Source of the DNA: Chthoniobacter flavus
GTDB taxonomy: Bacteria > Verrucomicrobiota > Verrucomicrobiia > Chthoniobacterales > Terrimicrobiaceae
NCBI GenBank assembly: GCA_945883435.1
Contig: CAMCXK010000026.1
Span: forward strand, 1 to 40,503
Reading direction: 5' to 3'
DNA length: 40,503 nucleotides
Position 1 is the first letter of the stretch; the number at the start of each line of letters is the position of its first letter. Below are positions 32,112-40,232 of this stretch, one piece after another. Below the pieces are notes generated by a model, which saw only the letters and a program-made list of their open reading frames with translations, had not been told where the DNA came from and did not search any database. Position numbers and translations under genes: made by a program.

Positions 32112-34529
32112 TCAGAAAAAATCGATCGCTTGGGGGATCTCGGGCTGAATGGCCGGAGCTTCCAATGGAGGGGCGTCCGATCCCACAGGCTCGGCCCGTC
32201 GAACCTCCACTTCCCCGGGAGCGGCGGGTGGAAGATCCGCCGGTGGTTCATTGACAGCCACCGCCCGGGCCACAGGCACGTCCTCGGGAAGATCTGCTCC
32301 GGGGCGAACCGACCGGTAAACGTCATTCAACCCCACCAAGGCGGGAGCCGCCACCGCCACAGGCCGGACCTTCGACAAGTCCACAGCCACGGCAGCCCTC
32401 GGCCAGTCGGCATCCTCGAATTCCTTGGCATAATTGCGAATGCCCCCGCCGTGCACATCGCACGGAATCGCGGGCGCTTGCTTTGCGGAGACCCATTCCT
32501 TGCGGGTTGCAAGGCCGTCCCCGCCGGGTTTCTGGCAACGTGGCGTGGCCAGGAGCCCCGATGCGGTGCAAATCTCGACCTCCTGCAAGCCTTCGGGCCG
32601 GGCGACCTCGCGGGCCGGATAAACGGCTTGAGCGGCATTCATCACGGCACTCCACACCGGCAGGGCCAGGTCCTTGCCAAAGGCTCCCCGGAAAATCCGC
32701 GTGGGCTTGTCAAAACCGACCCAGACACCACAGGTCACCGCGTTCGTGTAACCAAAAAAATAGGTGTCGGTGAACCCATATGCCGTGCCCGATTTGCCTG
32801 CTGCCGGAAAGGCTCCCAAGCTGAACTTCTCCCGGGCCAGCGCGCCCGTGCCGCGTTTCATAAAATCCACCATCTCGGTGTGCACCTGATAGGCAGCGAC
32901 AGGATCGATCGCCTTGTAGCGCTTGCGCGCGGCGCGGAAGATCACCTCGCCGGCCGGATCGCGGATGGATTGGATAATGTAAAGGTCGGCCGGCCGCTGC
33001 CCGCTGTTGGGAAACGCCGTGTAGGCGAGGACCATCTCATCAAGACTCGCTTCGCTGCTGCCCAAAAAGGAATTCGAGTAATCGCGCAAGGGCGAAGAAA
33101 TACCCGCCGCCGCCGCCGTCTTTTTGACCGCGTCCAATCCGGTTTTCATACCCAGCCGCACAGTGGCGGCATTCTTGCCTTTGACGAACGCATCCCGGCT
33201 GGTCATCGGGCCCTCGTATTCGTTTTCTGCGACCTCGACACCCCACTCGCCGAGAATGCCGGTTTCGCCACCCACCATCACATACCGGTTGTCGATGCAG
33301 GCGTCCTGGACAATCTCACCGGGATACAGGCCCGACTCGTAGGCCGCAGCGTGAACAAACGGGGTGAAGGCCGTGCCGGCCGGCCGTTTTCCTTGAATCG
33401 CACGGTTGTATTCGCTGTGGGCGAACTCCCGGCCGCCCGTCAGCGCGAGAATACCTCCGGCGGTGTTTTCCACAGCAAGCACGGCTCCTTGCAGGTATTT
33501 CGGCTCGGGCATTTTCAGCGACATGTTGCCGCGGTGGATCGACTCCTCGGTCTGGCGGGTGGCATTTCGATACTGGGAAAAGGTCGGGTGCGGGTAGCCC
33601 GGCTTGCCCTCGATCTCCAGCAGGGTTTTTTGAAGCGCCTGGTCGGAGGCTTTTTGCAAGTCCATGTCCAGCGTGGTGTCGATTCGGTAGCCGCCATTCA
33701 TGGCCCGCTCGAAGCCGAGGGCCTTGATGACCTGCTGGCGGATGAGTTCGTTGGCATAACCGACCTTGAAGGGATTCCTCCGCTGGACGGTTTGCATCGG
33801 CGCCTCGATCTCCTCGTTGTATTGCTTCCGTGTGATGAATCCGAGTTCCCTCATGCGCCCGAGGACGAAATTCCGGGCCTCGCGCGAGTCGGTGGGATCG
33901 TTGAATGGCGACAGGGCCTGCGGGCTTTTGAGAAGACCGGCCAAGGTTGCACATTGGCCGATACCGAGGTCGGCGGCGTTTTTCCCGAAGTAGCCTTGGG
34001 CGGCGGCTTCCGCTCCATAAAAGCCACTGCCGAAATACACCCGGTTCAGATAGTGGCCCATGATTTCCTTCTTCGAAAAATTCTTCTCAATGCGCCACGC
34101 GAGATACATTTCGACCAACTTGCGCTCGTAGGTGCGCTCGCGAAGTTCAAAGGAATTCCGCGCCAGTTGCTGCGTCACCGTGCTCGCGCCCTGGGATATC
34201 CGGCCTTTCCGGTAGTTTGTCACGGCAGCCCGCAGGATGCCCATGTAATCCACGCCATCGTGGTCGTAAAACCGGTTGTCCTCGGCGGCAACCACAGCCT
34301 TGACCAGCATTTCGGGCAACCGCTCGTAGGGAACTGGTTGACGGTTTTGGATAAACAGCTTGCCGAATTCGCGGCCCTTCCGGTCGTAAAGAATCGAGGC
34401 GGCCTCCATTTGCTCGACCTCCTTCAAATCGAATTCCTCCGCCCGCGCCTCGTAGCGCTGGGTAAGCACTCCAAAGGCGATCCACGCGAATACCATGCCT
34501 CCTGCCAGAATGGCCAAGGGCACCCACAC
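32112..34529 (-). CDS. Class A penicillin-binding protein (PBP1A type) with degraded transpeptidase site
   Basis: This peptidoglycan glycosyltransferase/transpeptidase homologue is 805 residues from GTG 34529. A span at residues 1-22 precedes the GT51 domain, which is intact: EDNRFYDHDGVD with catalytic Glu83, QGASTVTQQLARN at 113-125, and RKLVEMYLAWRIEKNFSKKE with Glu140. In the transpeptidase domain (about 345-620) the SxxK motif is replaced: PAGTAFTPFV has Thr386 and Thr389. The SxN motif is GKN at 451-453, while KSGT (579-582) remains. The C-terminal 130 residues are an Ala/Pro-rich extension. It probably polymerises glycan strands without cross-linking. The start is uncertain: the frame is open to 34619 with sensible sequence and a basic pre-membrane RKR, but no ATG, GTG or TTG. 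Confidence 0.9.
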   Translation of the reverse strand: MWVPLAILAGGMVFAWIAFGVLTQRYEARAEEFDLKEVEQMEAASILYDRKGREFGKLFIQNRQPVPYERLPEMLVKAVVAAEDNRFYDHDGVDYMGILRAAVTNYRKGRISQGASTVTQQLARNSFELRERTYERKLVEMYLAWRIEKNFSKKEIMGHYLNRVYFGSGFYGAEAAAQGYFGKNAADLGIGQCATLAGLLKSPQALSPFNDPTDSREARNFVLGRMRELGFITRKQYNEEIEAPMQTVQRRNPFKVGYANELIRQQVIKALGFERAMNGGYRIDTTLDMDLQKASDQALQKTLLEIEGKPGYPHPTFSQYRNATRQTEESIHRGNMSLKMPEPKYLQGAVLAVENTAGGILALTGGREFAHSEYNRAIQGKRPAGTAFTPFVHAAAYESGLYPGEIVQDACIDNRYVMVGGETGILGEWGVEVAENEYEGPMTSRDAFVKGKNAATVRLGMKTGLDAVKKTAAAAGISSPLRDYSNSFLGSSEASLDEMVLAYTAFPNSGQRPADLYIIQSIRDPAGEVIFRAARKRYKAIDPVAAYQVHTEMVDFMKRGTGALAREKFSLGAFPAAGKSGTAYGFTDTYFFGYTNAVTCGVWVGFDKPTRIFRGAFGKDLALPVWSAVMNAAQAVYPAREVARPEGLQEVEICTASGLLATPRCQKPGGDGLATRKEWVSAKQAPAIPCDVHGGGIRNYAKEFEDADWPRAAVAVDLSKVRPVAVAAPALVGLNDVYRSVRPGADLPEDVPVARAVAVNEPPADLPPAAPGEVEVRRAEPVGSDAPPLEAPAIQPEIPQAIDFF

Positions 34530-34679
34530 GCGTTTGCGGGCGAAAAATGGCCGCTGGTCAGGTTCGTCAGGCGTTTCCCAACTGTAGTGATCCTTGCTGA
34601 TGCGGCAGAATCTTTCACTTCAACCGCCGGAGTTCAAGTGCCGGAATTCCACGAAGCCCGCCGTGCCGGCGCCTCATTC

Positions 34680-34763: not shown

Positions 34764-37589
34764 ATGGGAATGAAGGTTCGCCCACACGCCATTGCCGCCA
34801 TCTGCTTGTCGATTGGACTCTGCGCCCAGGCCGCAGGGACCGATCTCTCGAGCCTGACGGCCAATGAGCTTTATGACCATGCCCGCCTGGCCTTCACGCA
34901 AAGGGACCATGCCGCCGCGCTGGAGGCCTACCGCAAGCTGGCCGCCGACTTCGGCCAGTCACCCGCCGTTCAGGAGGCGATTCAAAAATCCAAACATCCC
35001 GTCGCGATTTGTTGCGTCCGTCTCGGAAAATTCGATGAGGCGATCCCTGCGATCGAGGAGGCGCTGGCCCTCCAGCCCCCGCTGGATCAAGGGTCCCGCG
35101 AGGAGTTGCAATTCTGGCTGGGATGCGCGCTTTTCCAGCAGGAACGCCACCCCGAGGCACGCTCGGCCTTGGAGGTTTTTCTGGCCGGCTTTCCCGCGGG
35201 GGCCGAGGACAACGCGTTTCTTGTTCGCACCCGCCCGGCGGTCCGCCACATCGCCGACGCCCGGCTGCTTGTCGGAAATGCGTTGATCCTGGAGGGCCGG
35301 CACGCACCGGCTGCGGAGTGGTTCGGCCAAATGCGGGGTGGCTCGGGCCATCGCGGCAAGGCGGTGCTGTATCAACTGCATGCCCTTCTTCAAATCCCGG
35401 ACCACGCCGCCGCACTGGCCCTTGTTCAAGAGGAATATCCCCGCATGGCGGAAATTCCGCAGATCGCGTCGTTCCAAATGCTCACACTGGAACTGGGCAA
35501 CCGCTTTCTCGAAGCGGGCGAACTTCGCAAGGCCGCGCTGTGTTTCCAACGTGTCTGGACCCGGGACAGGCTCCTCCGCCACCAGGACGAGCGGGCTGCC
35601 ACCTTGCAAAAGCAGATCGAGGCGCTGGGCGATTCCCCCGACGTTTTCCGGAAGGGGCTGCTCGAGCGGACACTGGGAGAGATCCAGCGCGAATCGGAAA
35701 ATCTCCGCCCGATCAAAGGCTTCGATGCCGCCCTCCGATTCCGGTTGGCAATGGTCTACCTTCACATGCAGCGCTACCGCGAGGCTTCACTGGTCCTCGA
35801 AAATCTGGTCGCCTCGCTCCCCTCGGACGTCACCACCGAACTCGCGGGCATCAATGTCGTTCGCTGCCGCCGCGCCCTGGAGGACTCGCCGGGAACGGTC
35901 CGCGCCGCCGATCAATTCGCCGAAAAATTCCCGGCTTCCAAGTTCGTGCCCGAGGCGCGCTTTCTGGCCGCCGAATCCCTTCAAGCCAGCCTCCGCCCAG
36001 CCGAGGCGGCCACCGCTTTTGCCCGCATCCGCGAGGATCACCCGGCTTCGGAGTTTGGTGTGCGCGCCGCATTCAACGAGGGGTTTTGCCAGCTGCTGGC
36101 GGAGCAAAACTCCCGGGCAGGCACGGCCTTCGAGGAATTCCGGAAAAACCATCCACAACACCCTCTGGCGGAAAGCGCCCTTTACTGGCGGGGCATGGCA
36201 TTTTCGATGGACAAGGACCACGAGCGCGCCATCGAAACGATGCGTCAGCTCCTGAAAAAACACCCCGATGGCACCCACATGGGCCAGGCGGTCTTCCGTA
36301 TCGCCTACTCGAAAATGCAGCAGGAAAAATACGGTGAGGCCGCGGACGCCTTTCACGAATACCTCGAGCGGTTCCCCGGCGAGGCCGAAAACAACGAGGC
36401 CCGCATCCATTTTGCGAATGCGCTGATGAACGATGGTTACATGGAGGACGGATTGGAGGTTCTCCGCGCCGTGCCGCCGGGCGATGAACGCTATTACGCC
36501 GAGGCGACCTTCCGAAGTGCCGAGGCGCTCAAGCTCCTCGAGGATCTCGATGCCTACCGCAACCTCATGCAGGATTTTGTAAAAAGATTTCCCAAGTCGC
36601 CGCGCGTGGCGGAGGCAATTGCAAACCTCGGCTGGTATCACCGCCAGAAGGAGGAACCCGCAAAAGCCCGCGAGATCGCCTGGGAGGCCATTCGCTCATT
36701 GGGCAACGATCCCGCGATTCGTTCGGTGGAGGAATTGTTCCCGTTCCTGGCCCGCCTGTCGTCCGCTCCCGAGGATTTGGCGCGGCATCGCGAGGATCTG
36801 GAGAGCTTGGCCGAAAATCCCGCGTCGAAACGCCCGCTTCGCCTGCGCGCCCGCTGGGCCCTCGCTGCAACATGGAAAAAGTCCGATCCCGCGCGGTTCA
36901 GGGAGATTCTCAGGGAGGCGGTCCCGCTGGCCGACGTATCGGCCGACAATCCCGCCGTGCTCCTCGATCTCGCCCAAGCGGATTTGGATGGCGGCGACTC
37001 CGTCCGCGCCGAACGCCTTCTGCGCGACACCCTGCGCTGGAACCCCCGCACTCTCGTGAAAGACCGTATTCTCGCCCACCTCGCACGGATCGAAATGGAC
37101 AAAGGCAACGAACGGGCCGCTCTGGACCTTTTTGAGAGATTCGAGCGCGAGAATCTCGGCTCCGCCCTCTTCGCACCCACCATGATGGCAAAGGCCCGCT
37201 TGCTTCTCCATCGTGGCAAGGTGGCTGACGCCCGCCGCGCCTTGGAACAAGTGCTGGAGCAAAACACCACCCCGGGTGAAATGAAAGCCGAGGCCCTTTA
37301 CCTGATGGGAGAGTCTCATCTCGACAAAGGCGAGCCCGCCAAGGCGATTCCCTACTTCCAGCGGCTTTATGTCATGCACGGCCGCTGGAAGCCATGGGTT
37401 GCCAAAGCTTACCTTCGAAGCGGCGAGGCGTTTGAAAAAATGCCGGACCCCCTCAGCGCCCGCCGCACCTATGCGGAATGCGTCAACCATCCGGACCTCG
37501 CCGATTTTCCCGAAACTCTGGCCGCCCGCCAGCATCTGGACAGGCTCGGCGGTCCGCCACAAAAACCCGCATCCGCACCCGGAGGATGA
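34764..37589 (+). CDS. Large exported TPR-repeat protein
   Basis: This 941-residue protein has a signal peptide (HAIAAICLSIGLCAQAAG, cleavage near residue 24) and many tetratricopeptide repeats of the YbgF/BamD kind. Examples are ANELYDHARLAFTQRDHAAA near the start, AATAFARIREDHPASEFGVR, GTAFEEFRKNHPQHPLAESA, AADAFHEYLERFPGEAENNE and GEPAKAIPYFQRLYVMHG near the end. TPRs of this type bind other envelope proteins. It heads an operon with a second exported protein, ExbB, two ExbD and a TonB-like protein, so it is likely the periplasmic partner of a proton-driven energising complex, as YbgF/CpoB is for Tol-Pal. ATG 34770 is an alternative start. It overlaps the next gene by four bases. Confidence 0.85.
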   Translation: MGMKVRPHAIAAICLSIGLCAQAAGTDLSSLTANELYDHARLAFTQRDHAAALEAYRKLAADFGQSPAVQEAIQKSKHPVAICCVRLGKFDEAIPAIEEALALQPPLDQGSREELQFWLGCALFQQERHPEARSALEVFLAGFPAGAEDNAFLVRTRPAVRHIADARLLVGNALILEGRHAPAAEWFGQMRGGSGHRGKAVLYQLHALLQIPDHAAALALVQEEYPRMAEIPQIASFQMLTLELGNRFLEAGELRKAALCFQRVWTRDRLLRHQDERAATLQKQIEALGDSPDVFRKGLLERTLGEIQRESENLRPIKGFDAALRFRLAMVYLHMQRYREASLVLENLVASLPSDVTTELAGINVVRCRRALEDSPGTVRAADQFAEKFPASKFVPEARFLAAESLQASLRPAEAATAFARIREDHPASEFGVRAAFNEGFCQLLAEQNSRAGTAFEEFRKNHPQHPLAESALYWRGMAFSMDKDHERAIETMRQLLKKHPDGTHMGQAVFRIAYSKMQQEKYGEAADAFHEYLERFPGEAENNEARIHFANALMNDGYMEDGLEVLRAVPPGDERYYAEATFRSAEALKLLEDLDAYRNLMQDFVKRFPKSPRVAEAIANLGWYHRQKEEPAKAREIAWEAIRSLGNDPAIRSVEELFPFLARLSSAPEDLARHREDLESLAENPASKRPLRLRARWALAATWKKSDPARFREILREAVPLADVSADNPAVLLDLAQADLDGGDSVRAERLLRDTLRWNPRTLVKDRILAHLARIEMDKGNERAALDLFERFERENLGSALFAPTMMAKARLLLHRGKVADARRALEQVLEQNTTPGEMKAEALYLMGESHLDKGEPAKAIPYFQRLYVMHGRWKPWVAKAYLRSGEAFEKMPDPLSARRTYAECVNHPDLADFPETLAARQHLDRLGGPPQKPASAPGG

Positions 37590-38593
37590 AAAGCTTTCTT
37601 TCGATCCTCCTGCTATCCACGGCCCCTCTTGGAGCAACCGAGATTCTCACCCTTAAAAATGGTGAGCAACGCACCGGCGACATCGTGTCGGTGGACGACC
37701 GCACTGTCCGACTGCGCGTGATTCTCACCTCAAGCGGCGCCGCCCAGGCCACAGCCACCGTCTCGCTCAACCGCGCCGATCTCGCGAACATCCGCTTCGC
37801 CCCCGACGCGGCCCTCGAGGACCGCCTTCAACGAGCCTCGCCAAACGATGCCCCCGCCCTCGAGCAGGATTGGGAAAAAGCCCGCCTTTGGCTGGAAATG
37901 CCGGAGTCGCCGGCCGGGAGCATCGCTCTCGCACTGGGTAATGCCTGGCTTCGCACGGGCAAAAAAGCCGATGCCCGGCGCGCCCTGGATCTGGTTTCCC
38001 TCGTTGAAAAATCCTCCTGGCGTCCGGGGGACCGCACCCGCGCCCGCGAGGTCCGCCTCCGTGCCATGGTCGCCAGCGGACGCGCCGCGGATGCCGTGGA
38101 CGAAGCCACCAAACTGGCAGAGGAAACCGAAGACCCCGAAATCCTCATCGAGGCGAACCTCATCCGCGCACAGGCGTCCGAACGCCAACTTCGCACATTC
38201 CTTCAGGAAAACCCGCGCTGGATGGAGGACGAATTTGTCATCGACGAACGCCACCGCCTGCATGCCCGGACACTCGATTTGTATCTTTACCCGGCGCTTT
38301 TCCACGGCACCGATCTGGCCCGCGCCGCCCGCGGCCTCTGGGGGGCGATCGAAGTCCACCGCCTCGCCGGCGATTGGCCCAATGCCGTCGAAACCGCCCG
38401 CGACCTGGCCCAGTTCTATCCCTCCACCCCCGAGGCGGCTCTCGCAAATGACTTTCTCGCCTCGCTCCCTCCAGACATGCGGGCTCTCGACGCCGAGGCG
38501 GCCGCCCGCCAGGAACTCGCTTCCTCCTCCCCCCAACCGACCCCGACTCCCGAATCACCGACGGAAAAACCCAAAAAGAAAAAGAAACCATGA
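37586..38593 (+). CDS. Exported hypothetical protein with SH3-like N-terminus and helical repeats
   Basis: This 335-residue protein has a signal peptide MKSFLSILLLSTAPLGA, then a short beta-rich unit EILTLKNGEQRTGDIVSVDD, RTVRLRV and AQATATVSLNRADLANIRF, a pattern of small barrel domains found ahead of TPRs in planctomycetal and verrucomicrobial proteins. Residues about 80-300 are TPR-like helices: GSIALALGNAWLRTGKKADA, AVDEATKLAEETEDPEILIE and DWPNAVETARDLAQFYPSTP. The C-terminus is a Pro/Lys tail (EKPKKKKKP). No enzyme motif is seen. It begins in an ATGA overlap with the large TPR gene and ends in an ATGA overlap with exbB, indicating one translation-coupled operon. Confidence 0.8.
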   Translation: MKSFLSILLLSTAPLGATEILTLKNGEQRTGDIVSVDDRTVRLRVILTSSGAAQATATVSLNRADLANIRFAPDAALEDRLQRASPNDAPALEQDWEKARLWLEMPESPAGSIALALGNAWLRTGKKADARRALDLVSLVEKSSWRPGDRTRAREVRLRAMVASGRAADAVDEATKLAEETEDPEILIEANLIRAQASERQLRTFLQENPRWMEDEFVIDERHRLHARTLDLYLYPALFHGTDLARAARGLWGAIEVHRLAGDWPNAVETARDLAQFYPSTPEAALANDFLASLPPDMRALDAEAAARQELASSSPQPTPTPESPTEKPKKKKKP

Positions 38594-39348
38594 AAACCCG
38601 ACTCCCGCTCCTCGTTGCCCTTCTCGCCACCTGCTGGCTCATGACCACCGCCCATGCGGAGGAACCGGCGGCCAAACCTCCCAAGGATAAAACCCTCATG
38701 GACCTGTTTCTCGCCGGAGGTCCCCTCATGTGGCCGCTGCTGGCCTGCTCGATCGGCACCGCCGCCGTGGGTGTGTATTGCTTCTTGCAAATCCAGGGAA
38801 AGAAAATGATGCCGCCCGCGCAGGTCGAGGCCCTCGGCCAGTTTCTGCAAGTGCGCGATGCCGGCTCGGCCTACTCGCTTTGCCACAGCCAGCCGAATGT
38901 TTTCGCCAACACCATGGCCGCCGCGCTCCTCAAAGTGAATTTCGAACGCGACCTCTCGAACAAGGCCTCGATGGAGCAGGCCGCCGGAGAAACCCTCGCC
39001 AACGAGGAGACCAAGCTCAACCTCTGGGTCAACTACCTCAATGTTTTCGCCACCATCGGTCCGATGCTCGGGCTCCTCGGAACTGTCACCGGTATGATCG
39101 CAAGCTTCGACATGCTCGCCGCCGGAAAATCCGAACCCGCCGACCTCGCGGGCGGCATCGGCGAAGCGATGATCACCACCGCCGGCGGACTCTTCGTGGG
39201 CATCCCGGCGATGTTTCTGTATTTTTACTTCCGCAACCTCCTTCAAATCAACGTCGCCAATATCCAAAAACGCGCCACCTTCCTCCTCGATCTCCTGAGC
39301 GGCGAAATCAAAATCGAAGGCGCGTCCGCCGAGTTCCATCAATCCTGA
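38590..39348 (+). CDS. exbB: ExbB/TolQ/MotA-family proton channel protein
   Basis: This 252-residue protein is the channel subunit of a Ton/Tol-type energising complex. It has an N-terminal signal peptide (LLVALLATCWLMTTAHA), as in the extended ExbB of several phyla. A first span is at GGPLMWPLLACSIGTAAVGVY. After a cytoplasmic domain with MEQAAGETLANEETKLNLWV come the spans VFATIGPMLGLLGTVTGMIASF, containing the family's GLLGTVTGM signature, and IGEAMITTAGGLFVGIPAMF. The Thr/Glu positions around GTVTGM and GEAMITTAGGL line the proton path in ExbB. It is followed six bases later by exbD. Confidence 0.94.
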   Translation: MKTRLPLLVALLATCWLMTTAHAEEPAAKPPKDKTLMDLFLAGGPLMWPLLACSIGTAAVGVYCFLQIQGKKMMPPAQVEALGQFLQVRDAGSAYSLCHSQPNVFANTMAAALLKVNFERDLSNKASMEQAAGETLANEETKLNLWVNYLNVFATIGPMLGLLGTVTGMIASFDMLAAGKSEPADLAGGIGEAMITTAGGLFVGIPAMFLYFYFRNLLQINVANIQKRATFLLDLLSGEIKIEGASAEFHQS

Positions 39349-39354
39349 GCCGCC

Positions 39355-39762
39355 ATGCGACTCCCGAAACGCCAAGAGGACGAAATCGGATTCCAACTCG
39401 CTCCGATGATCGACATGACATTCCTCCTGCTCATCTTTTTCATGGTCACCACCAAGATTTCCAAGGAGCAGGTCAAAGTGGACATCAAACTCCCCACCGC
39501 CTCGAACGCCACCATTCCGTCCGACCTTTCGAATCGCGATATCATCAGCATCGACGGCGAGGGGCGCTATTACATCGGCCAGGATCCCGCGGACAAAAAG
39601 TCCCTCACCGCCCACCTCAAGGAACGCTTCAAAGTCACCCCGCCCCTCCGTCTTTACGTCCGCGCCGACAAAAACACCCCCGGCCGTCAAATCAAGGAAC
39701 TCATGCGCATCGCCAGCGAAGCCGGCGCCGTCAACGTCATTTTCGGCACCTATCAAGACTGA
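39355..39762 (+). CDS. exbD: ExbD/TolR-family protein (first)
   Basis: This 135-residue protein has a short cytoplasmic start, MRLPKRQEDEIGFQL, a span APMIDMTFLLLIFFMVTTK with the proton-carrying Asp of the ExbD family (about residue 20), and a periplasmic domain including RDIISIDGEGRYYIGQ, PLRLYVRADKNTPGRQIKEL and ASEAGAVNVIFGT, the usual ExbD fold. The protein partners ExbB in the channel. The next gene, 26 bases downstream, is a second ExbD. Confidence 0.94.
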   Translation: MRLPKRQEDEIGFQLAPMIDMTFLLLIFFMVTTKISKEQVKVDIKLPTASNATIPSDLSNRDIISIDGEGRYYIGQDPADKKSLTAHLKERFKVTPPLRLYVRADKNTPGRQIKELMRIASEAGAVNVIFGTYQD

Positions 39763-39788
39763 CCGCAAACCCGCACCATCCTGCCTCC

Positions 39789-40232
39789 ATGCGCCTCCGC
39801 CGCCGAGATACCCAAACCGTGGAAATGCAAATGGGCCCCATGATCGACATGGTGTTTCTCCTGCTGGTGTTTTTCATGGTCTCGGCAAAACCGATCAAGC
39901 AGGAGAGCGACATCAATATCGGACTTCCCGGCACCGTCGCCCAGGAGGAAACCCTCGACATCCCCGACGAGCAGCGCATCCGCATCGAATCCGACGGACG
40001 CGTCCTCCTCAACGAACAGCCGATGGACACCCCGGCCAATGCCGATCTCCCTGCTCTTGTCGCCACGCTCAAACGCTTCAAGGAATCCGCCGATGCCAAC
40101 AAAAGCGAGGCCCTTGTCACGATCGATTCCGATGATGCCGCCCACCACCAGCGCATCGTTGCCGTTCTCAACGCCTGCGCCCAAGCCGGCATCACCGGCG
40201 TGACCTTTGCCGACTCCGGAACCGAGGAATAA
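39789..40232 (+). CDS. exbD: ExbD/TolR-family protein (second)
   Basis: This 147-residue paralogue of the preceding ExbD has the span MGPMIDMVFLLLVFFMVSAK with the conserved Asp, then a periplasmic domain with DEQRIRIESDGRVLLNEQPM, EALVTIDSDDAAHHQRIVAV and ACAQAGITGVTFA. Two ExbD genes in tandem suggest a mixed ExbD dimer inside the ExbB pentamer. ATG 39789 is chosen by homology; the frame is open upstream through exbB and the first exbD in other phases. Confidence 0.93.
   Translation: MRLRRRDTQTVEMQMGPMIDMVFLLLVFFMVSAKPIKQESDINIGLPGTVAQEETLDIPDEQRIRIESDGRVLLNEQPMDTPANADLPALVATLKRFKESADANKSEALVTIDSDDAAHHQRIVAVLNACAQAGITGVTFADSGTEE

Follow-up and report, generated by a model that had tools for sequence, protein, structure and literature searches.

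A gene on the minus strand of the stretch of Chthoniobacter flavus DNA analysed here (40,503 nucleotides of contig CAMCXK010000026.1; the window) is best read as encoding a class A PBP (aPBP) with a conserved pseudo-transpeptidase, a natural equivalent of the E. coli mutant PBP1B(S510A). The protein, in which threonine stands in the place of the SxxK serine (the Thr-type PBP), is probably a membrane-anchored polymerase of lipid II whose transpeptidase-fold domain forms no acyl-enzyme and has been repurposed. In window coordinates, the features of the gene are:

32112 to 34601, minus strand: Thr-type class A PBP, full gene, 829 amino acids from ATC 34601-34599
34599 to 34601, minus strand: likely start of the gene at a non-canonical ATC, 24 codons before GTG 34529
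34440 to 34526, minus strand: N-terminal transmembrane helix, approximately residues 2-30 (AlphaFold2 helix 2-31 and hydrophobic sequence)
33852 to 34352, minus strand: GT51 glycosyltransferase domain with E83 and E140 (PF00912)
32712 to 33488, minus strand: predicted pseudo-transpeptidase domain (PF00905; PBP1A fold)
33363 to 33374, minus strand: degenerate SxxK motif, T386-A-F-T389
33234 to 33290, minus strand: Thr-family loop, N414-R-x-V-M-x-G-G-x-x-G-x-L-G-E-W-G-x-E432, at the site of the canonical W-x-P-x-N
33171 to 33179, minus strand: degenerate SxN motif, G451-K-N453
32784 to 32795, minus strand: retained KTG motif, K579-S-G-T582
32112 to 32114, minus strand: stop codon

Translation from GTG 34529 (32112-34529, minus strand) yields 805 amino acids without a stop, and residues are numbered accordingly. 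The protein has the architecture of a class A PBP: a transmembrane helix, a Transgly domain (PF00912, 210-213.5 bits) with both glutamates, and then a Transpeptidase domain (PF00905, 55.9-58.4 bits; cut-off 22.1). It is a divergent PBP1A-like protein that scores 478 bits against the PBP1A subfamily model (TIGR02074; NCBIfam PBP_1a), short of the cut-off of 508.75. Monofunctional glycosyltransferases of the MtgA type consist of a GT51 domain alone, of approximately 250 amino acids; the Thr-type PBP, with 805-829 amino acids including a full transpeptidase fold, is not GT51 alone, and its score against TIGR02070 is 146 bits (cut-off 182.65).

Both catalytic glutamates of GT51 that the sequence-only reading had described are present in the translation, E83 within AAEDNRFYDH and E140 within RKLVEMYLAWRIE, and the domain is predicted to be active as a polymerase. 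Its description of the transpeptidase motifs also holds. The SxxK position reads T386-A-F-T389 within RPAGTAFTPF, and phmmer aligns 'krpagtaftpf' without gaps to 'krqpgssfkpf' of Pseudomonas aeruginosa PBP1a (4oon), which carries the G-S-S-F-K-P-F of the family; TAFT takes the same position in a MAFFT alignment with more than 100 other aPBPs, and as a sequence alignment the match is secure. Of the residues that mark an acyl-serine transferase, the serine and the lysine of SxxK are therefore both threonine (T386, T389) and the serine of SxN is glycine (G451-K-N453, within VKGKNAATVRL), and KTG(T/S) is present as K579-S-G-T582. By these substitutions, transpeptidase catalysis has presumably been lost.

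In a larger tree (FastTree, clade support 0.99), the Thr clade has 72 distinct members. Thr386 is found in 72 of 72 and serine in none, and because the threonine is shared by all of these distinct proteins it is due neither to chance nor to sequencing error; a local mutation, for which the sequence-only reading had proposed to look in close relatives with Ser and Lys, and an assembly error are ruled out in the same way. The lysine of SxxK is kept in five of the 72, position 389 being T (40), L (15), V (6), K (5), A (2), I (1), Q (1) or H (1). Position 451 is G in 41, S in 29 and A in one (n=71), and N453 is present in 58 of 71 and replaced by Ile in the other 13, which are Verrucomicrobiales such as Akkermansia. 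The GT51 glutamates are both present in 71 of the 71 members that cover the site; at KTG, K579 and the glycine are found in 70 of 70 and T582 in 67 of 70. In one genome (G010:C10:137576-139994) the gene is split across two overlapping reading frames by a frameshift or an assembly error.

Trees built with the three motif regions masked place 31 Thr rows in one clade (SH-aLRT 98 in a 78-row LG+C20 tree), which is monophyletic also in a 26-row LG tree (SH-aLRT 98) and which branches, in the 78-row tree, beside the canonical aPBPs of Verrucomicrobia. An aPBP match was obtained in 56 of 58 genomes comprising the window's own and relatives in its order. The long Thr form is present in families f1-f13 of Chthoniobacterales and in approximately 42 of the 46 genomes of the order that are at least 90% complete; because approximately four of these 46, two of 0.9 Mb plus G024 and G036, are without it, the gene is not universally needed. 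(The open frame of 24,349 codons at approximately 128000-200000 of G057:C1 is an artefact of a masked N run.) Beyond the order, at the levels of class and phylum, the Thr form occurs in f15, an Akkermansia-like family, and in f33; an orthologue (L172) lies at G134:2584545-2586674 of an Akkermansia-like genome. Among the matches listed, the closest relatives of the window gene are Verrucomicrobiota, records named Akkermansia, Akkermansiaceae and Haloferula carry the Thr form, the Thr clade is found only in genomes of Chthoniobacterales and Verrucomicrobiales type, and the loci of other phyla have the canonical serine. The clade spans two orders and probably includes the gut bacterium Akkermansia. 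One record (L076) bears the title Akkermansia muciniphila MAG MiH-14oct19-163; since it clusters with f33 and not with the Akkermansia-like family, its label is probably wrong. The simplest history suggested by the tree would be duplication of a Verrucomicrobia aPBP, a change of Ser to Thr in one paralogue before Chthoniobacterales and Verrucomicrobiales split, and subsequent drift of the lysine. The loss of the serine and, in this protein, of the lysine, the age and conservation of the Thr form, selection on the domain, its predicted fold and coexistence with catalytic paralogues can all be read from the sequences.

The Thr group also has residues of its own. A five-residue insertion is present, the canonical W-x-P-x-N segment is replaced by a GGxxGxLGEWGxE loop, and N414, G420, G421, G424, L426, G427, E428, W429, G430 and E432 are invariant (71/71). 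The AlphaFold2 model of the Thr-type PBP (pLDDT 82, with most of the transpeptidase domain above 90) has the fold of PBP1A (Z 48.3 to 3ue1; Z 46.5 to 4oon, rmsd 1.9 over 381 residues), and its pLDDT is 65-78 across the stretch of the invariant loop. In such a model, a loop that is conserved yet poorly placed can resemble a ligand- or partner-binding element. Together with Thr386 and the KTG face, it could form a rebuilt site, shared by two orders including Akkermansia, that serves either Thr-based, beta-lactam-insensitive cross-linking or reception of stem peptides for gating of the glycosyltransferase, which we consider unlikely. A receptor that takes up D-Ala-D-Ala stem peptides or beta-lactams but does not turn them over, gating the glycosyltransferase by substrate supply, is a sub-case of the repurposed-domain explanation and in this specific form is very unlikely: the acylation residues are gone and the KTG face is kept throughout (70/70), and the invariant loop of low pLDDT at the W-x-P-x-N site could be the binding element, but N453, whose equivalent Asn normally contacts the peptide, is gone in the Akkermansia branch. 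If T386 itself were a slow or specialised nucleophile, the protein would be a beta-lactam-insensitive cross-linker; this would agree with the strict invariance of Thr386 without any drift, with the presence of KTG in nearly all members, and with the retention of TxxK, SKN and KTG together in L034, L038 and L048-L050. However, the general-base site is T, L, V, A, Q, I or H in most members, the window protein included, N453 is Ile in 13 of 71 members, and PBPs and beta-lactamases in which the serine is mutated to threonine are as a rule essentially inactive, and we assign a very low probability to transpeptidation through Thr386. Since threonine has a hydroxyl, and the protein family keeps K579, T582 and in many members N453, Thr386 may still be weakly acylated, above all in the lineages with TxxK, SKN and KTG.

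Decay of the domain was evaluated by comparing the two paralogues in 21 genomes that hold both a Thr-type and a canonical aPBP, the latter with Ser, Lys389, SRN and KTGT in 21 of 21. The Thr and the canonical group have the same mean identity of the transpeptidase domain (0.531), and the median ratio of transpeptidase to glycosyltransferase distance is 1.14 for the Thr group versus 1.26 for the canonical group. Pairwise dN/dS of the Thr-type genes, with dS saturated in the most divergent pairs, lies at 0.02-0.07 in the transpeptidase domain and at 0.015-0.05 in the glycosyltransferase domain; the C-terminal tail has 0.05-0.20. It is highly improbable, then, that the domain is the leftover of a decaying transpeptidase, kept only through fusion to a needed glycosyltransferase: the catalytic lysine and the SxN serine are gone in many Thr-clade members and unrelated aPBPs of the class have lost theirs too, but the dN/dS values of the domain resemble those of the glycosyltransferase and lie well under those of the tail, its divergence ratio is below that of the catalytic paralogue, and new invariant residues arose. 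The evolutionary comparison suggests that a dead transpeptidase domain has been kept under strong selection and has acquired a new, non-catalytic job. Of the overall picture drawn by the sequence-only reading, the loss of nucleophile and lysine, the intact glycosyltransferase motifs and the assignment of cross-linking to other enzymes stand; its description of the domain as a relic is not supported, given purifying selection that matches that on the glycosyltransferase, identity equal to that of the catalytic paralogue, the fully retained KTG lysine and the invariant Thr-family loop.

In the repurposed-domain explanation, the GT51 domain would polymerise lipid II into glycan strands, and the transpeptidase-fold domain would form no acyl-enzyme because the serine and the general-base lysine are both threonine. 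The domain would be retained for a non-catalytic task, such as positioning or regulating the glycosyltransferase, docking a partner, or binding a stem peptide by means of the KTG face, which is retained, and the newly invariant loop; both points, no acylation and a non-catalytic task, are inferred. Nascent strands would be cross-linked by the canonical aPBP, class B PBPs or LD-transpeptidases. The genome of the window has candidates for each, as the assignment of cross-linking to other enzymes supposes: one other aPBP (on C110) with canonical motifs, three class B PBPs with SxxK and KTGT intact, two SEDS proteins and five YkuD proteins. Between 4 and 17 YkuD proteins are present in 38 of the 39 genomes searched, the exception to at least four being one 0.9-Mb genome with a single YkuD. 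Chthoniobacterales genomes are in general rich in proteins of this LD-transpeptidase type, with up to 17 each. E. coli PBP1B(S510A), of which the transpeptidase is dead, prevents lysis on LptC depletion like the wild type, and in vitro LdtD, together with PBP6a, cross-links the strands that it makes (PMC6428754). Given this precedent, coupling of the Thr-type PBP to LD-transpeptidases is plausible.

The neighbourhood gives no clue to partner or function, the gene order around the Thr-type PBP not being conserved among the genomes compared. Among these, CorA-PrmA and TPR-hyp-ExbB-ExbD flank the gene in the genome of the window only, and a divergent Methyltransf_28 gene lies beside it in distant members only. 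On the plus strand of the window (34764-40232), divergent from the PBP, are genes for a TPR protein of 941 aa and a protein of 371 aa that has no Pfam match, and then MotA/TolQ/ExbB and ExbD/TolR.

The Thr-type PBP has the same transmembrane helix, GT51 domain, linker and transpeptidase-fold domain as P. aeruginosa PBP1a (4oon), Acinetobacter baumannii PBP1a (3ue1) and E. coli PBP1B, with a fold Z of 46-48 to the two PBP1a structures. It resembles PBP1A and PBP1B in its intact glycosyltransferase motifs and retained KTG, but differs in that the serine and lysine of SxxK and the serine of SxN are replaced, and in that the invariant GGxxGxLGEWGxE loop takes the place of the W-x-P-x-N segment. 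PBP1B(S510A), like the Thr-type PBP by sequence, is a class A PBP with a functional glycosyltransferase and a dead transpeptidase, but it is an engineered point mutant, whereas the loss here is natural, old and followed by further change that was conserved. MtgA and SgtB are likewise GT51 polymerases without cross-linking activity, as predicted for the Thr-type PBP, but have no transpeptidase domain, whereas the Thr-type PBP keeps the full domain under selection. The nearest catalytic relative is the canonical Verrucomicrobia aPBP (G000:C110 in the genome of the window), a paralogue usually found in the same genomes, which has GSVVK, SRN and KTGT intact and has neither the NRxVM insertion nor the GEWG loop.

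No description of the Thr-type family was found in searches of open-access literature; PMC8406291 assigns a classic aPBP to Akkermansia, in passages that do not touch on its active sites. If the proposed explanation is true, it implies an old, selected split of glycan synthesis from cross-linking inside one class A PBP, a natural counterpart to the S510A mutants used for dissecting PBP1B, and it makes testable what the transpeptidase domain of a class A PBP does for the polymerase when it is non-catalytic. Annotation pipelines will label the protein as bifunctional or as a penicillin target, so that the number of beta-lactam targets counted in Verrucomicrobiota would be misleading.

The nucleophile is missing from other aPBPs of the class as well. 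Proteins of approximately 1300 amino acids from orders outside that of the window (L197-L202) have RENGALLQPF, with SxxK mostly A-x-x-Q, a degenerate SxN, and M-x-G in place of KTG; L197 and L200 keep the serine and not the lysine. By its motifs, this clade is a second family of aPBPs with a pseudo-transpeptidase. In Akkermansia-like genomes, the third aPBP (L184, L185) has MPG[DE]LFTP and no SxN or KTG, and altogether L184, L185, L180 (second ORF) and L196, from Akkermansia-like genomes and f33, have D, E, A or T at the nucleophile position, with SxN and KTG lost or altered. These aPBPs probably lost the nucleophile independently. A single loss shared by the Thr clade and the 1300-aa proteins is disfavoured (AU p 0.03, 26-row LG tree).

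The start of the Thr-type gene, which the sequence-only reading had placed at GTG 34529, is better placed at ATC 34601-34599, to which conserved sequence upstream points: the N-terminal ISKxYYSWE reaches 24 codons upstream of the GTG. An in-frame TGA (34622-34620) is followed by no ATG, GTG or TTG up to the conserved SWE; several genomes, including that of the window, have none of these codons between the upstream stop and the start site, and in L020 they are absent all the way from the upstream stop through the 40 codons that follow WE. Seven codons before WE there is an ATH codon in 29 of the 34 Thr-family genes listed. Most relatives in f1, f9 and f13 have ATC, ATA or ATT at the start site, and ATG is found there in f12 and at the homologous site in L032 and L052. 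The best reading of the aligned upstream sequences is a conserved AUH start, AUC in this gene. A conserved AUH start with control of initiation is known for infC, and the AUC, AUA and AUU codons at homologous sites in L004-L030 suggest infC-like initiation control.
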